A DNA stretch of 64,000 nt from Occallatibacter savannae (lineage in GTDB: Bacteria; Acidobacteriota; Terriglobia; Terriglobales; Acidobacteriaceae), in assembly GCF_003131205.1 (NCBI RefSeq), contig NZ_QFFY01000002.1:829016-893015 (forward strand), given 5' to 3'. Below are positions 36,858 through 55,656 of the stretch, one piece after another. The notes below the pieces were generated by a model that worked only from the letters and a program-made list of their open reading frames with translations, made no database searches and had not been told where the DNA came from. Positions within the stretch are counted from its first letter, which is position 1. The number at the start of each line of letters is the position of its first letter. Made by a program: the position numbers and the translations under genes.

Positions 36858-36992
36858 GATGCGGGGCCGCCGAGGCCAGTTGCAAGTTTCTCCGGATGTT
36901 CTTATCGTGGCGGGTGGGGCAGACAAGGTGCGAGCTGAACGCTACGCATCGTGACCGCCTCAATATCCACCACTGAACTTCCGGAGAGAACC

Positions 36993-38129
36993 ATGCGTGC
37001 GCGACCTCTGATTGCCCTTGCTTTCGGGCTGGCTTTACCGGCACTTTCAACACTTGCTCAGGCGCCGGCTTCCCCGGCAACTCAAGTTCCCGCCACGCTG
37101 AAGGACGCTTTTCACGGCGCATTCTATGTGGGCGTCGCCGTCAATTCCGCCCAGATCACGGGAGCGGACGCGCAGGGCGACGAACTGATCGTGCAGCAGT
37201 TCGACTCCATCACGCCTGAGAACGTAATGAAGTGGGCGCTGATTCATCCCCGGCCCGATGCGTACGACTTCACGCTAGCTGACAAGTACGTCGAGTTCGG
37301 CCAGCAGCACCACATGTTCATCGTGGGTCACAATCTCTGCTGGCATTCGCAGACGCCGGCTTGGGTGTTCAAGGATGAAAAAGGAAATCCAATGACGCGC
37401 GACGCGCTGCTCGATCGGCTGCACGATCACATCAAAACGGTCGTCGGCCGCTACAAGGGCAAAGTCCAGAGCTGGGATGTGGTGAACGAAGCTCTCAACG
37501 AAGACGGCACGATGCGCCAGTCACCGTGGGAGAAAATCATCGGCGACGACTACGTGATCAAGGCGTTCCAGTGGGCCCACGAAGCTGATCCGGATGCGCA
37601 GTTGAACTACAACGACTACAACATGGAGAGCGCTGCCAAGCGCAAAGGCGCAATCGAGTTGGTGAAGAAGATCAAGGCCGCAGGAGTGCCAGTTGCCGTC
37701 GTCGGCAGCCAGGCGCATCTGCATCTCTCCGGCAGTGCAGCGGATGAAGAAGCTGCCATTGAGGAGTTTTCGGCCGCGGGAGTGAAGGTTGCGATCACCG
37801 AGCTCGATATCGACGTGCTGCCCTCGACCTGGAACCACACCGCCGACGTAGGCGCCAAGGTTGAGGAGAAGCCCAACCTGAATCCGTACGCGAACGGCTT
37901 GCCCGATGATGTTCAGCAGCAACTGACGAAGCGCTATGCCGACCTCTTCGCCGTGTTCTGGAAGCACCGCGACGTAGTCAATCGCGTCACTTTCTGGGGC
38001 ACAACCGACAAGGGCTCGTGGCTCAACAACTGGCCCGTCCGCGGCAGGACATCCTACCCGCTGCTCTTCGATCGCGATGGCAAGCCGAAGCCGGCGTTCT
38101 ATGCCGTTCTGAAGGCTGCGCAGCAATGA
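36993..38129 (+). CDS. Endo-1,4-beta-xylanase, glycoside hydrolase family 10
   Basis: 378 residues. Exported by a signal peptide (LIALAFGLALPALSTLAQA); hydrolyses the beta-1,4 backbone of xylan with retention. GH10 marks are clear: FDSITPENVMKWALIHPRPD, HNLCWHSQTPAWVF, the acid/base Glu166 in WDVVNEA, and the nucleophile Glu270 in ITELDID, with the closing NRVTFWGTTDKGSWLN. A single catalytic domain of normal length with no carbohydrate-binding module. Start at 36993, since GGAGAG lies four bases upstream. There are no other xylan genes nearby, so it is a solitary plant-polymer enzyme. Confidence 0.96.
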   Translation: MRARPLIALAFGLALPALSTLAQAPASPATQVPATLKDAFHGAFYVGVAVNSAQITGADAQGDELIVQQFDSITPENVMKWALIHPRPDAYDFTLADKYVEFGQQHHMFIVGHNLCWHSQTPAWVFKDEKGNPMTRDALLDRLHDHIKTVVGRYKGKVQSWDVVNEALNEDGTMRQSPWEKIIGDDYVIKAFQWAHEADPDAQLNYNDYNMESAAKRKGAIELVKKIKAAGVPVAVVGSQAHLHLSGSAADEEAAIEEFSAAGVKVAITELDIDVLPSTWNHTADVGAKVEEKPNLNPYANGLPDDVQQQLTKRYADLFAVFWKHRDVVNRVTFWGTTDKGSWLNNWPVRGRTSYPLLFDRDGKPKPAFYAVLKAAQQ

Positions 38130-42896: not shown

Positions 42897-42952
42897 CGGC
42901 GTTTCCTCTCTGCTTGTTTTCAGCGGGCCGTTCTCTTCAGCGGTCGACTCAG

Positions 42953-43303
42953 CTACTCCGGCAATTCACCCAGGATGAGCCCGATCGCCCGCGTCATCTT
43001 CCGCCAGCGGTCGGTCGCGGCGTTCAGTTCCTTCCGGCCTCTATTCGTCAGGCGGTAGAACTTCGCCTTGCGGTTGTTCTCGCTCACGCCCCACTCCGAC
43101 GAAACCCAGCCGCGGTCCTCGAGGCGATGCAGCGCCGGATAGAGCGATCCCTGTTCAACATCGAGCGCATTTTCTGAGGTGCTTTCAATGGTCTGCGCGA
43201 TGGTGTGTCCGTGAGCCGGTCCCAAGATCAGCGTGCGCAGGATCAGCATGTCCAGCGTGCCCTGCAGCACGTCTCCAGCTTCCGGCGGTCGTTTCGAAAT
43301 CAT
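42953..43303 (-). CDS. PadR family transcriptional regulator
   Basis: 116 residues: VLQGTLDMLILRTLILGPAH, GHTIAQTIESTSENALDVEQ, GSLYPALHRLEDRGWVSSEW and NNRKAKFYRLTNRGRKEL. About half of its residues look the same as in the PadR at 33697, so the two padR-ADOP modules probably arose from one ancestor. GGAGAG lies five bases before the ATG, inside a duplicated upstream sequence (43311-43365). Likely repressor of the following permease. Confidence 0.94.
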   Translation of the reverse strand: MISKRPPEAGDVLQGTLDMLILRTLILGPAHGHTIAQTIESTSENALDVEQGSLYPALHRLEDRGWVSSEWGVSENNRKAKFYRLTNRGRKELNAATDRWRKMTRAIGLILGELPE

Positions 43304-43310
43304 GAGTGCT

Positions 43311-43365
43311 CTCCACTCGAATGACTATGGGAAAAGAGTCTACTCCACTCGAATGGCTATGGGAA
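43311..43365 (-). promoter_or_regulatory. Tandem 23-bp direct repeat before padR, candidate operator/promoter duplication
   Basis: The sequence beginning CTCCACTCGAATG at 43311-43333 is repeated at 43343-43365 with one mismatch (ACTATGG against GCTATGG), 32 bases apart, i.e. about three helical turns. Read on the minus strand each copy contains CATTCGAGTGGAG; the copy nearest the gene supplies its ribosome site. It could be a pair of PadR sites on one face of the DNA. Confidence 0.5.
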
Positions 43366-43376
43366 GAGGGAAAAGC

Positions 43377-43424
43377 AGGGAACAAGAGAACAAGGCGACG
43401 AGGGGACAAGAGAACAAGGGAGGG
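43377..43424 (+). repeat. Short tandem array H8 (AGGGACA type, irregular)
   Basis: Units AGGGAAC, AAGAGAAC, AAGGCGACG, AGGGGAC, AAGAGAAC, AAGGGAGG of seven to nine bases. A 21-base block spanning its middle recurs exactly in array H9 at about 63378. It lies 20 bases from the stop of the histidine kinase gene. Confidence 0.65.
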
Positions 43425-43444
43425 AAGTGCCCTTCTTCCTCGCT

Positions 43445-44518
43445 TCAGATTTGGGGCGGCTTCTGCGGCATGGGAAACGTGCACGTCACCGCCGTGCCCT
43501 GTCGCTTGCCGGATTTGATCTCCAGAGTCCCGCCGATGATTCTCGCCCGGTTCTCCATCGTGTAGCGCCCGAAGCCGTCCACAACGCCCTGGGGCTCGAA
43601 GCCCACACCGTCATCGCTGACGACGAGCATCCCGCAGCCATCGTTCGAACTGAGGCTGATGGAGATCGCAGAAGGCCTGGCATGCCGCAGCGCGTTGTTC
43701 AGCGCTTCCTGTGCGATGTAGTAGAGGTGGTACGCCACTTCCTGATCCTTGATCGACACCGGCGTCCGGCACTCAAACCGGCACTCCAGCTGCGCCATCA
43801 TCGAGATGTCCTCGGCTGCACGAGAAAGAGCAATCTGCAGGCCGTCATCCTCCGTAAGCACGGGAGCCATGCCGCGAGCCAACTCCCGGGTTCGCTGAAT
43901 TGCTTCGCTGATCAGCGAGACAATCTTGCGCGCCTCCGCGGTTTCGGGCCGGTGTTCTTTGTCCAATCTGCCCTCAAGGTACTTCGACATCAGGCCGATG
44001 CCGGTTAGGCGCTGCCCCAGGTCGTCGTGCAGATCCTGTCCGATGCGGCGTTGTTCCCGCGCGCTGATGTCGAGCATCGCCCGCTCCAGGCGCTGCCGCT
44101 CCTGAACCTCCTCGGCGAGTTTAGCGTTGGCCAGGCGCAACTGCGCCGGGCTGGGTATGGCCACGGCCTTGGGTATGAGCCAGATCAACAGAACCGCCGT
44201 TGCCGCCGAAGCCACAGCCGTAATCGCCTTGATAATGCCTGCCAGCCGGTACGCCGGGTGCCAGATGGTCCACACCTCCATCAGGTGCGTGGTGCCGCAA
44301 CCGAAAATGAATACCCCGAACATGAAAAAGATCCAGTGGAACGGAACGTCCGGCCGCTTCTTCACAAAGATCGCCAGCGCAAGCGGAATCATGTAGTAGG
44401 AGATCGTAATTGCCGAGTCGGCAATCGCATTCAGCCAGAGCACCTCGGGCGCCCACCTGTAGCAGAAGCCGTGAGGCATGAAGTCCTGTGAGAACAGATG
44501 CACGAAGAAATTCCACAT
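43445..44518 (-). CDS. Sensor histidine kinase with ethylene-receptor-like membrane domain
   Basis: 357 residues. The N-terminal 115 residues form three to four membrane helices resembling plant/cyanobacterial ethylene receptors: Asp34, Tyr41, Pro45, Ile71, Cys74 and His78 have the same spacing as Asp25, Tyr32, Pro36, Ile62, Cys65 and His69 of Arabidopsis ETR1, including the Cys/His pair that holds copper. After a coiled segment (about 125-150) comes a HisKA_3 dimerization domain with phospho-acceptor His164 (GQDLHDDLGQRLTG) and a HATPase domain (YYIAQEALNNALRHA, SDDGVGFEP). The last glycine box is unusual (GFGRYTMENRA where GLxxMxER is normal). NarL-type response regulators are the usual partners; none is adjacent. 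Start 44518 begins right at the conserved part (MWNFFVHLF), with GGAG ten bases upstream. It lies 168 bases downstream of the 7TM/SpoIIE gene, same strand. Confidence 0.92.
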   Translation of the reverse strand: MWNFFVHLFSQDFMPHGFCYRWAPEVLWLNAIADSAITISYYMIPLALAIFVKKRPDVPFHWIFFMFGVFIFGCGTTHLMEVWTIWHPAYRLAGIIKAITAVASAATAVLLIWLIPKAVAIPSPAQLRLANAKLAEEVQERQRLERAMLDISAREQRRIGQDLHDDLGQRLTGIGLMSKYLEGRLDKEHRPETAEARKIVSLISEAIQRTRELARGMAPVLTEDDGLQIALSRAAEDISMMAQLECRFECRTPVSIKDQEVAYHLYYIAQEALNNALRHARPSAISISLSSNDGCGMLVVSDDGVGFEPQGVVDGFGRYTMENRARIIGGTLEIKSGKRQGTAVTCTFPMPQKPPQI

Positions 44519-44686
44519 ACGTTGCGAGCTCCGTAGCGGCCCAGTTTCCCAACAGGTTCTATGAAGTTTTCCGGAAGGGGCGAACAAATAATGATCTCGG
44601 AGGCAAAAGGATTGCAAGTATCAAATCAGGTATCTCTGACGGGAGGGGCGCAATGCGGCGTTCAGAACGTGCTTGATCGCTAAGCA

Positions 44687-46657
44687 TCAGGCCGGAACAG
44701 CGACAGGCTGCAGATCGAGCGTCAGCACCGTGATGTCGTCTTCCTGCCCAAACCGCCGGGCCGCCTCGGCGATTCGTTCCGCTGCTTCGGTTGACAGCGC
44801 GCATGCGCGTTCAAATCCCATGAGTTCGCCGCTGGCATCGCGAGCCTCGACTACGCCGTCCGTCAACAGAGTGAGCCGCTGGTCGGCATGCAGGGTGACG
44901 GTCAGCTCGGGATACTTCGACTCCGCGGAGAGCCCAAGAGGCAGCCCGTTGTCTGTCGCGAGCTCGCGGCCGTCGAGATATGGAGCGAGATGGCCGGCGT
45001 TCGCCACCGTGAGGGTTCCGTCGGCATCCACGCGCAGTGCGAGGCAGGTAGTGAATCCCCCACCGCTGCGGCCGAGCACGCAGCCATTCATGGCGGCCAA
45101 TATCTCGCCCGGGCTCTGCGTGTACTGCACCAGAGTTCGCACCGTTCCCACCAGCAGCGAAACTGTCATCGCAGCCGGCAGTCCCTTTCCGCTCACATCG
45201 CCGATTACGGCCAGCACTCCGCCATTGTTTGCAGGCAGGATCTGGAAAAAGTCTCCACCGACCTCGCCTGCAGGGATGTAGCAGCTCTGGATTGCAAAGC
45301 CGGGAATCCGAGGTGCTTGTTCCGGAATGAGGATCTGCTGCACGATTCGTGCAGCCTGAAGTTCACCGGCAAGATGTTCTTCGTGCCGTCGCGTCCGCGT
45401 GAATCGGCCGACAAGGATCGCGAGCATCGCCGAAAGAAAGATGACATCGATGAACGGGCGCGCGCTGAGATTGAAGAATCGGGTCGCACTCATCGAGCCG
45501 TGTGTCAGGCCAAGAGCAAACATCTCGAAGGTCACGATTCCGGCGAGGTTTACGCCTTCCACCAGCAGCGTGGGACCGAGCAGAAGACGCGCGTCAGGAA
45601 CTCCCTCGAAAGCTTTGACAGTAACGAGGATGAGGACCCAAATGATTGGAGGCACCAGGGTAGAGAAGTTGCAGGCACTCACCTGTGTCTGCGTGAAGAT
45701 CCCCATCATGGCGAGCAGGAATGGCAGGGGCCTCGTCAAGGAGACGAAGGCGGAAACCCAGAACAACCAGTTCTTGCGGCCGTGCAGAAGGTGAATATAG
45801 AACGCGAGAAAGGCGAGCGTTCCGGCGCCCTCCGCTGCAGCCCGCGAGATCTCGCGGAAGTCGATATTGATCGTTCCAAAATTCCCGGCGCAGGCCAGGG
45901 CCTCGATATACGTCTTGAAGAGCAGCCAGACTCCGAACCACAAGTACTCGCGCTCGCGCCGATGCTGCCACGCAAATCCCAGCGCAAAGATGGCCCCGAG
46001 AAAACAAAGCAGCGCGGAAAACAGCGGCGGAGCCCAGCTCCAGGGATCGCCCGGGAAATCCGCAACGCGCATGCGGTCGATGGCTGCTGCGCCTCCGATG
46101 TAGCCCGCACTCTGCGGCCCTCCTCCGTAGTAATGCGCCCAGTACGGCCAGTGCCACACGCGGATCGCAATCAGTATCGTGCTTGCCTGAGATTGAGCGG
46201 TCGCGGGCAGCCGATAAACGGGAGGTCGCCCCGTCTGCAGGTTGCGCCGTGGCGGCATTCCGCCAAAGCCGCCCAGCAAGCGGCCATCGGCATAGACTTC
46301 ATAGCTGGTCAGGAATCTCGGGAAGTAAAGAGCCAGGGGAGCTGACCCGGCTGGGATCTTCACTCTGAAGCGATACCAGCCGAAGCCGCTCATCTTGGGA
46401 TAGCCCTGCGAACTCCAGCCACGATCTGACCGAAGCAGCGGCCATGAGGAGTCGTCGAATGCAGGGTCGGCCCAGTGCGGATCGTCGCCGGGATGAAAGC
46501 GCCACAGTCCGTCCAGCTCCGCGATCGGCAGGCGGTCCTTCGCGAGGTCAAAAGCCTGCGCACGGACAGCTTCTGCACCACTCACGCACAGCATGGCGAG
46601 CAAAAGCAGAAAGTGGATCAGGGCCTTGCGGGGAAGCATTGTGAGGAATGGTGTCAC
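44687..46657 (-). CDS. 7TM sensor fused to SpoIIE/PP2C phosphatase
   Basis: 656 residues; intact paralogue of the broken gene at 15878-17964. Signal peptide (LIHFLLLLAMLCVSGAEAV), periplasmic jelly-roll-like domain (LDGLWRFHPGDDPHWADPAF, GFGWYRFRVKIPAG, about 45-190), seven membrane helices (about 205-410), a short linker (HLAGELQAARIVQQILIPEQ) and a PP2C/SpoIIE domain (about 430-650) with GGDFFQILP, GDVSGKGLPAAM, AGHLAPYLDG, LLTDGVVEARDASGE and FGQEDDITVLTL. It should dephosphorylate a cytoplasmic serine/threonine-phosphorylated anti-anti-sigma protein in response to a periplasmic signal. No partner genes adjoin it, but the histidine kinase gene follows on the same strand. A start at 46639 is also possible. 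Confidence 0.92.
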   Translation of the reverse strand: MTPFLTMLPRKALIHFLLLLAMLCVSGAEAVRAQAFDLAKDRLPIAELDGLWRFHPGDDPHWADPAFDDSSWPLLRSDRGWSSQGYPKMSGFGWYRFRVKIPAGSAPLALYFPRFLTSYEVYADGRLLGGFGGMPPRRNLQTGRPPVYRLPATAQSQASTILIAIRVWHWPYWAHYYGGGPQSAGYIGGAAAIDRMRVADFPGDPWSWAPPLFSALLCFLGAIFALGFAWQHRREREYLWFGVWLLFKTYIEALACAGNFGTINIDFREISRAAAEGAGTLAFLAFYIHLLHGRKNWLFWVSAFVSLTRPLPFLLAMMGIFTQTQVSACNFSTLVPPIIWVLILVTVKAFEGVPDARLLLGPTLLVEGVNLAGIVTFEMFALGLTHGSMSATRFFNLSARPFIDVIFLSAMLAILVGRFTRTRRHEEHLAGELQAARIVQQILIPEQAPRIPGFAIQSCYIPAGEVGGDFFQILPANNGGVLAVIGDVSGKGLPAAMTVSLLVGTVRTLVQYTQSPGEILAAMNGCVLGRSGGGFTTCLALRVDADGTLTVANAGHLAPYLDGRELATDNGLPLGLSAESKYPELTVTLHADQRLTLLTDGVVEARDASGELMGFERACALSTEAAERIAEAARRFGQEDDITVLTLDLQPVAVPA

Positions 46658-55251: not shown

Positions 55252-55656
55252 TTAGGGCTGACCGTCCGCTTGCGACAGCATCGCCTGCATGCGCTCGAGC
55301 AGCTCCGTCGGGTGGACCGGCTTTGGGAACACATCGAACCTCCGGCACTTCGACTGAATCTCGCGGCGAAGTTCCTGCAGGTCGGCCTGGCCAGAGATGA
55401 GCAGGACCCTGCAATGGGGCAGATGCTCGCAGACCTGGATCGCAGCATCGATTCCGGAGAGCCCCGGCATGTAGACATCGCTGAGCAGAAGGTCCGGAGA
55501 CCACTCGACGGCTTTTTCTACCGCAGCGATCCCGTTGTAGACGACCCTCACATCGTAGCCGGCCCCGGTTAGAATCAGCTTGAGCGTGTCAGCAATGGTT
55601 TTTTCATCGTCCGCAACCAGGACGCGTGGTTTTTCACCGGAACGGAAGGCGCACAT
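55252..55656 (-). CDS. Single-domain response regulator
   Basis: 134 residues, receiver domain only: VLVADDEKTIADTLKLILTG with the acidic pair, phospho-acceptor Asp in LLLSDVYMPGLSGIDA, Ser/Thr switch in VLLISGQADL and Lys in FDVFPKPVHP. No DNA-binding output, so it acts by protein contact (CheY-like) or as a phosphate relay. The Lys loop has PKPVHP, as in CheY-like receivers of complex kinases. No kinase gene adjoins it; the ethylene-receptor-like kinase 11 kb away would normally need a NarL-type partner. Divergent from the ArsR gene. Confidence 0.92.
   Translation of the reverse strand: MCAFRSGEKPRVLVADDEKTIADTLKLILTGAGYDVRVVYNGIAAVEKAVEWSPDLLLSDVYMPGLSGIDAAIQVCEHLPHCRVLLISGQADLQELRREIQSKCRRFDVFPKPVHPTELLERMQAMLSQADGQP

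Follow-up and report, generated by a model that had tools for sequence, protein, structure and literature searches.

The 64,000 nucleotide stretch of the Occallatibacter savannae genome analysed here (the window) encodes a sensor histidine kinase whose membrane part resembles the ethylene-binding domain of the plant receptor ETR1. This raises the question of whether an acidobacterium carries an ethylene receptor and, if so, where the signal goes. Few bacteria have been shown to sense ethylene (PMC11819568; PMC6682694). A reading of the window made from the sequence only had stated that cyanobacterial ethylene receptors are known, and this is so: the domain of SynEtr1 (slr1212) of Synechocystis binds ethylene (PMC6682694), as does that of AzoEtr1 of Azospirillum brasilense (PMC11819568). 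The literature searched, which was partly available, yielded no account of an acidobacterial ethylene receptor; an earlier mention may exist, e.g. in reviews of nonplant receptors.

The gene and its parts are as follows.

43445-44518, minus strand: whole gene, sensor histidine kinase with ETR1_N membrane domain, HisKA_3 and HATPase_c; 357 aa, ATG at 44518

44462-44476, minus strand: P-H-G-F-C motif, residues 15-19 (H16, C19), just ahead of helix 1 (alignment)

44159-44449, minus strand: putative ethylene-binding domain, residues 24-120, three predicted membrane helices (Pfam ETR1_N and AlphaFold2)

44384-44419, minus strand: helix-1 putative binding residues D34, Y41, I44 and P45 (alignment to ETR1 and bacterial members)

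44285-44308, minus strand: helix-2 putative binding residue I71 and putative Cu(I) ligands C74 and H78 (alignment)

43862-44056, minus strand: HisKA_3 dimerisation/phosphoacceptor domain, residues 155-219, H164 in QDLHDDLGQ (Pfam)

43466-43729, minus strand: HATPase_c ATP-binding domain, residues 264-351, with intact N-box and G1 box and a changed G2 box (Pfam and alignment of relatives)

The coordinates that the sequence-only reading gave for the histidine kinase are correct, and the strand can now be added: the frame 44518-43445 is open on the minus strand, and the plus strand is interrupted by stops. A longer start, TTG at 44617, is present in the list of open reading frames. The SZAS-3 orthologue, which is 81% identical, has an in-frame stop one codon ahead of the aligned ATG, and therefore ATG 44518 is the likely start and TTG 44617 an unlikely one. 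A promoter scan of 42900-44800 gave 0 sites, and no terminator-like sites were seen on the minus strand there.

Pfam ETR1_N (PF25487) matches residues 26-120 with 128.1 bits (E=1.6e-37; curated cut-off 27), which is the outcome of the profile search proposed earlier as a check on the membrane domain. The match is far above chance, the profile matching 0 of 14 control genomes. The kinase follows, with HisKA_3 at residues 155-219 (46.6 bits, H164 present) and HATPase_c at residues 264-351 (42.5 bits), and the suggestion of a HisKA_3-type kinase part unlike that of the plant receptors is thus confirmed. Plant receptors carry GAF and a HisKA-type kinase. Pfam finds neither GAF nor HisKA in the window kinase up to E=0.1, so that the plant-type (ETR1/ERS) layout is absent, and it finds no PAS domain.

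All of the residues associated with ethylene binding are present. In the ETR1 sequence as we take it to be, with self-consistent numbering, D25, Y32, P36, I62, C65 and H69 stand at the window residue numbers minus 9, a constant offset, and the claim that D34, Y41, P45, I71, C74 and H78 have the ETR1 spacings is borne out by the alignment. The further claim of a full residue set needs an amendment: the residues are there, but the list of six had omitted I44, the counterpart of Ile35 of ETR1, and the published set has seven members. In the alignment all seven positions (D34, Y41, I44, P45, I71, C74 and H78) are kept, and K97 aligns with K91 of ETR1. The spacing from the His to the Lys over the loop between helices 2 and 3 is 19 in the window protein vs 22 in ETR1. 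Ethylene binding in ETR1 needs seven residues, and roles are given for C65, D25, H69 and K91, in the available text of PMC11819568.

Such completeness is not common among relatives. Searching with the Pfam profile alone gave 30 acidobacterial domains, the window domain included; both copper ligands are kept in 21 of them and D34 in 19. Only six of the 30 keep all seven residues, two of these being the window protein and its SZAS-3 orthologue, and therefore complete conservation in the window protein is informative. C74 and H78 are invariant in alignments of 49 and 78 rows, whose rows were collected by conserved patterns, so that intact members are over-represented. The orthologue retains K97 as well as the seven residues. 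Its identity to the window protein is 80.6% over 351 codons, with a dN/dS of 0.087 overall and of 0.076, 0.043 and 0.128 in the membrane, phosphoacceptor and ATP domains, respectively; these values are rough, as dS is 1.2-1.8 and near saturation. Purifying constraint on both the membrane and kinase parts argues against a decaying gene.

The AlphaFold2 model (49-row alignment; mean pLDDT 85.5, pTM 0.51) has three N-terminal helices at residues 24-54, 61-86 and 90-120 (block pLDDT 82-96) and a single long helix, 124-187, that leads from the membrane part into the kinase; residues 13-17 have a pLDDT below 50. The sequence-only reading had expected the binding residues to face one site. By helical wheel, a weak stand-in for distances in a model, D34, Y41 and P45 span no more than 40 degrees, I71, C74 and H78 no more than 60, and I44 sits 60 degrees outside the D34/Y41/P45 arc. 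The expectation thus passes weakly, with the two clusters in its favour and I44 off the arc. A PDB sequence search with the membrane domain gave no match; the structure of the ETR1 domain is described as elucidated (PMC10452086). A PDB fold comparison from residue 128 on paired the kinase part with VraS (Z 19.9) and DesK (Z about 16-17.5, with several DesK rows of large rmsd). The predicted model thus resembles these solved structures in its HisKA_3-type core fold (Z about 16-20), and the sensor parts differ.

Just ahead of helix 1 is the P-H-G-F-C motif, of a type (PHGxC) common to many bacterial members of the ethylene-domain family. Plant receptors have two N-terminal Cys at the place of this motif, and cyanobacterial receptors have a single N-terminal Cys (PMC6682694); the available text of that paper holds no mention of the His of PHGxC. 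A first table of the joint loss of motif and copper ligands (120/1/0/5, 126 usable of 134 rows) was set aside as biased by motif-based collection, because the contig scan had used the pattern DF[MV]PHG[FH]C and a similar motif had been in the frame filter for L115-L141. Counts were recomputed on the profile-found acidobacterial rows. L019, L032, L035 (the same gene as L027) and L114 were removed before the counts, and L134 was lost at the filter. Among the 24 usable of the 30 rows, PHGxC is intact in 19 of 19 with both copper ligands and not intact in 5 of 5 missing at least one ligand, mostly the His (table 19/0/0/5); the rows in both tables are phylogenetically related and not independent, and a Fisher value on them is therefore no true probability. 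L015 and L018, which belong to the six rows excluded for gaps, keep the Cys and His ligands with no aligned motif, and this speaks against a strict rule of joint loss. Perhaps PHGxC has a role in copper handling or as a dimer link.

The ethylene-type domain is not unique to the window genome, which itself has two such domains by profile search. Profile searches found it in 100 of 398 genomes at the family level (93 above the Pfam cut-off), in 7 of 80 at the genus level (6 above) and in 18 of 396 in a sample of the phylum (17 above), counts in which several of the weakest matches appear spurious or degenerate. When named genomes were scanned with a pattern, 134 relatives came up and the best 80 were retained; the relatives come from records titled Acidobacteria, Cyanobacteria, Proteobacteria, Bacteroidetes/Bacteroidota, Verrucomicrobia and others. 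A tree of 125 rows and 135 columns, which left out 10 degenerate or short rows (L014-L018, L022, L025, L026, L137 and L139), resolves few forks. In it the window domain joins that of SZAS-3 (100/100) and then with a Bryobacterales protein (88/83), and falls outside a 22-row acidobacterial clade (100/97); Acidobacteriota require 11 changes on the tree.

It is the HisKA_3 output on an ethylene-type domain that is unusual. Among 78 ethylene-domain proteins scanned, 64 have HisKA and two, the window protein and L108, have HisKA_3; the 78 are the window protein and 77 of 80 loci, with L035 (the orthologue), L114 (a fragment) and L105 (unknown residues) left out. The SZAS-3 orthologue is a third case. 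When the window kinase part was compared by phmmer with 138 ethylene-domain proteins, it scored 502 bits with itself, 372 with the orthologue (twice, as L027 and L035), 78 with L108 and less than 28 with the others, a set in which proteins from short loci were cut and some kinases thus unseen. The L108 kinase gene (L108:74-1863, Terriglobia MAG SRVP_6) overlaps a LuxR-type regulator gene, which counts in favour of a LuxR-type partner for the window kinase; the first part of its ethylene-type domain (PHGxC and the D25 position) lies outside the open frame.

Closer relatives of the kinase core are found elsewhere. In a search of 60 family genomes with the core alone, eight had matches at E<=1e-25; besides the window kinase, five matches are 46-52% identical and the other four 29-35%. 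The close relatives are longer kinases with PAS domains, as read from open frames; two of six (C9 of the window genome and the G468 member) were confirmed by Pfam as PAS plus HisKA_3. In an alignment, the window core is 46-51% identical to six acidobacterial PAS-type HisKA_3 kinases vs 29% to L108, and the phosphoacceptor stretch is nearly identical between the window kinase and the PAS-type relatives. These similarities support a derivation of the core from an acidobacterial PAS-PAS-HisKA_3 line, and the difference in identity makes it most likely that HisKA_3 cores were gained separately by the window protein and by L108. The kinases of this line that are paired with a LuxR regulator (the C9 pair, L152, and the G468 pair, L166) share the 46-51% identical core, including SAREQRRIGQDLHD, and differ in having PAS inputs where the window protein has a membrane ethylene-type domain.

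By family, the window protein belongs to a type of bacterial receptor that is already known, and its rare output makes it a variant of that type. It resembles AzoEtr1, as far as that protein is described in the available text, in the N-terminal bacterial domain, the seven residues and the ligand spacing (D34, C74, H78 and K97 vs D35, C75, H79 and K98). It differs in having HisKA_3 and no PAS or adjacent regulator, whereas AzoEtr1 has PAS before the kinase and an overlapping regulator gene. With SynEtr1 it shares an ethylene-binding-type domain joined to a kinase, and the cyanobacteriochrome light domain reported for SynEtr1 sets the two apart. The likeness to plant ETR1/ERS1 lies in the three-helix Cu(I)/ethylene-type domain (predicted in the window protein) with an identical residue set.

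Where the signal might go is suggested by the other HisKA_3 kinases of the genome. Of five HisKA_3 matches, four have a same-strand receiver-domain match within 500 bases, and the window kinase is the fifth, without one. The PAS-type paralogue C9 is directly followed by a LuxR-type regulator gene (G000:C9:165982-166674). At E<=1e-50, five of the 80 genus genomes have this regulator, including both genomes that have the ethylene-HisKA_3 protein, a co-occurrence with a chance of 0.003 if genomes are taken as independent and kinship is ignored; the two genomes are possibly sister species, and kinship may account for it. The PAS kinase adjoins the regulator in three of the five regulator-bearing genomes (three inspected). 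The C9 paralogue is the obvious kinase of the adjoining regulator, which counts against a partnership with the window kinase. We infer, weakly, that the window kinase probably signals to the C9 LuxR-type regulator. A single-domain response regulator of 134 aa is encoded 11 kb away, at 55252-55656 on the minus strand, the nearest among the receivers listed, and could be the partner instead.

The same regulator type is also found near hydrogenase genes. A [NiFe]-hydrogenase large-subunit match lies less than 2 kb from the C9-type regulator gene in G468 and G442 of the genus and in G502 of the family; for G442 (contig C297) the analysis covered the positions of the regulator and the hydrogenase match. 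The pair of PAS-type HisKA_3 kinase and LuxR-type regulator sits within a [NiFe]-hydrogenase gene cluster in G468 (L166:600-7452, with Pfam matches to both the small and large subunits), and such a pair is in or beside a cluster in G502 (L153:3765-8588). It is a candidate hydrogenase control pair. No such linkage was seen in the window genome or in SZAS-3, where the regulator and the hydrogenase matches lie on different contigs.

The reading that we favour, with a probability of roughly 0.68, is that a Cu(I)/ethylene-type input was swapped onto the acidobacterial PAS-HisKA_3 line, with output via the C9 LuxR regulator. The three-helix membrane domain would hold Cu(I) through C74 and H78 and bind ethylene on the Cu(I), as the complete conservation suggests, and ethylene binding would make the attached HisKA_3 kinase more or less active. 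An ethylene input would thus stand in for the PAS inputs of the line. Without an adjacent regulator, the most likely target would be the LuxR-type regulator beside the C9 paralogue, and the output transcriptional. That the domain binds ethylene is likely, given the conservation of all seven residues and the precedents of SynEtr1 and AzoEtr1, and copper binding would follow on the same grounds. A more elaborate version is doubtful. In it, the kinase line that received the domain is one with some relatives in [NiFe]-hydrogenase clusters, the domain now passes ethylene information to the LuxR regulator of that line, and PHGxC is a second metal-handling site (for copper loading or a dimer link), present or absent together with the copper ligands.

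One alternative is a sensor of Cu(I) or another small ligand, in which the binding residues are kept as builders of the copper site and ethylene is not the signal. The frequent loss of D34 or P45 in acidobacterial relatives that keep C74 and H78, as in the counts given above and in the Asn/Cys subfamily that holds the second copy of the window genome (L002), fits a copper site used beyond ethylene. The window protein, however, keeps all seven residues and K97, as do ethylene-binding receptors (PMC11819568, available text), and none of the seven neighbouring proteins scanned matches a Pfam family of copper resistance or copper transport, so that a copper sensor seems unlikely here. We give equally little weight to a kinase that is inactive or mainly a phosphatase owing to a degenerate G2 box, and that dimerises with or antagonises the PAS-type paralogue. 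The altered last glycine box pointed out in the sequence-only reading is real: the window kinase has GFGRYTM, where the PAS-type relatives mostly have G-M-G-L/M-H-I/L-M (e.g. GMGLHIM) and vary among themselves, and the SZAS-3 copy is without the first Gly. The HD-LGQ motif, which in the HisKA_3 class is associated with phosphatase activity, is retained as HDDLGQ. Yet one of the six PAS-type relatives (G477) has Arg at the same G2 position, and thus the altered box is no proof of a dead kinase. H164, the N-box (EALNNALRH), the G1 box (DDGVGF) and the GT-V last strand are all intact, and an omega of about 0.13 points to purifying selection on the ATP domain.

Far less probable than either is a receptor for plant ethylene linked to plant-wall degradation through a nearby xylanase. 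A GH10 xylanase is indeed encoded at 36951-38129 (Pfam), as the sequence-only reading had remarked, and a polygalacturonase-type glycan hydrolase-like ORF, seen by eye, comes after the C9 regulator in the same genome. The distance of 6 kb given earlier is 5.3 kb; three genes separate the two, and the xylanase is encoded on the other strand from the kinase. In the 10 kb surrounding the kinase gene of SZAS-3, the one orthologue found, the neighbours are different and no xylanase-like ORF was seen, and other ORFs follow the SZAS-3 regulator (by eye). The tie to wall degradation was therefore rejected. The choice of plant ethylene as the signal was a guess that finds no support in this analysis; soil ethylene has microbial sources too. 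According to a review seen in part, root-released ethylene lowered acidobacterial abundance in the peanut rhizosphere (PMC8629125), which is neutral on sensing.

A SpoIIE-type phosphatase gene (44687-46657) lies upstream of the kinase gene on the same strand, and a PadR gene (42953-43303, padR_acidobact match) and an ADOP permease lie downstream. The SZAS-3 locus (L035) has moaC-like and mtgA-like ORFs (by eye), the kinase gene coming after the latter; no neighbour shared with the window was seen in its 10 kb, and thus genomic context gives no function. Both ethylene-domain genes of the window genome adjoin PadR and an ADOP-type permease (the second at L034:7616-10882, permease by eye). This link was treated as chance or weak, as the genome holds 26 PadR matches above cut-off and a PadR motif scan of the SZAS-3 orthologue locus found none; one further locus, L029, has the motif.

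Since about a quarter of the sampled family genomes (93 of 398) carry the domain, some copies not intact, soil acidobacteria may be a large and little-studied group of ethylene responders. Being small and without PAS or GAF, the window protein would lend itself to asking whether ethylene binding is enough by itself to drive a kinase and transcription.

Two departures from the binding set were seen in relatives. A second subfamily in the same bacterial family (L034, L013, L020 and L028-L031) has Asn at the D25 position and keeps the copper ligands, with Cys at the P36 position in six rows and Ala in one. It includes the second copy of the window genome (L002; L034:6347-7480, G000:C10), which is attached to a HisKA kinase. 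By the rules derived from ETR1, members of this subfamily should not be expected to bind ethylene normally. In L011:1411-2400, an ethylene-type domain (ETR1_N, 84.7 bits) is fused directly to a GGDEF diguanylate cyclase (159.2 bits), and this fusion keeps the D, Y, C and H residues and has Phe at the P36 position.
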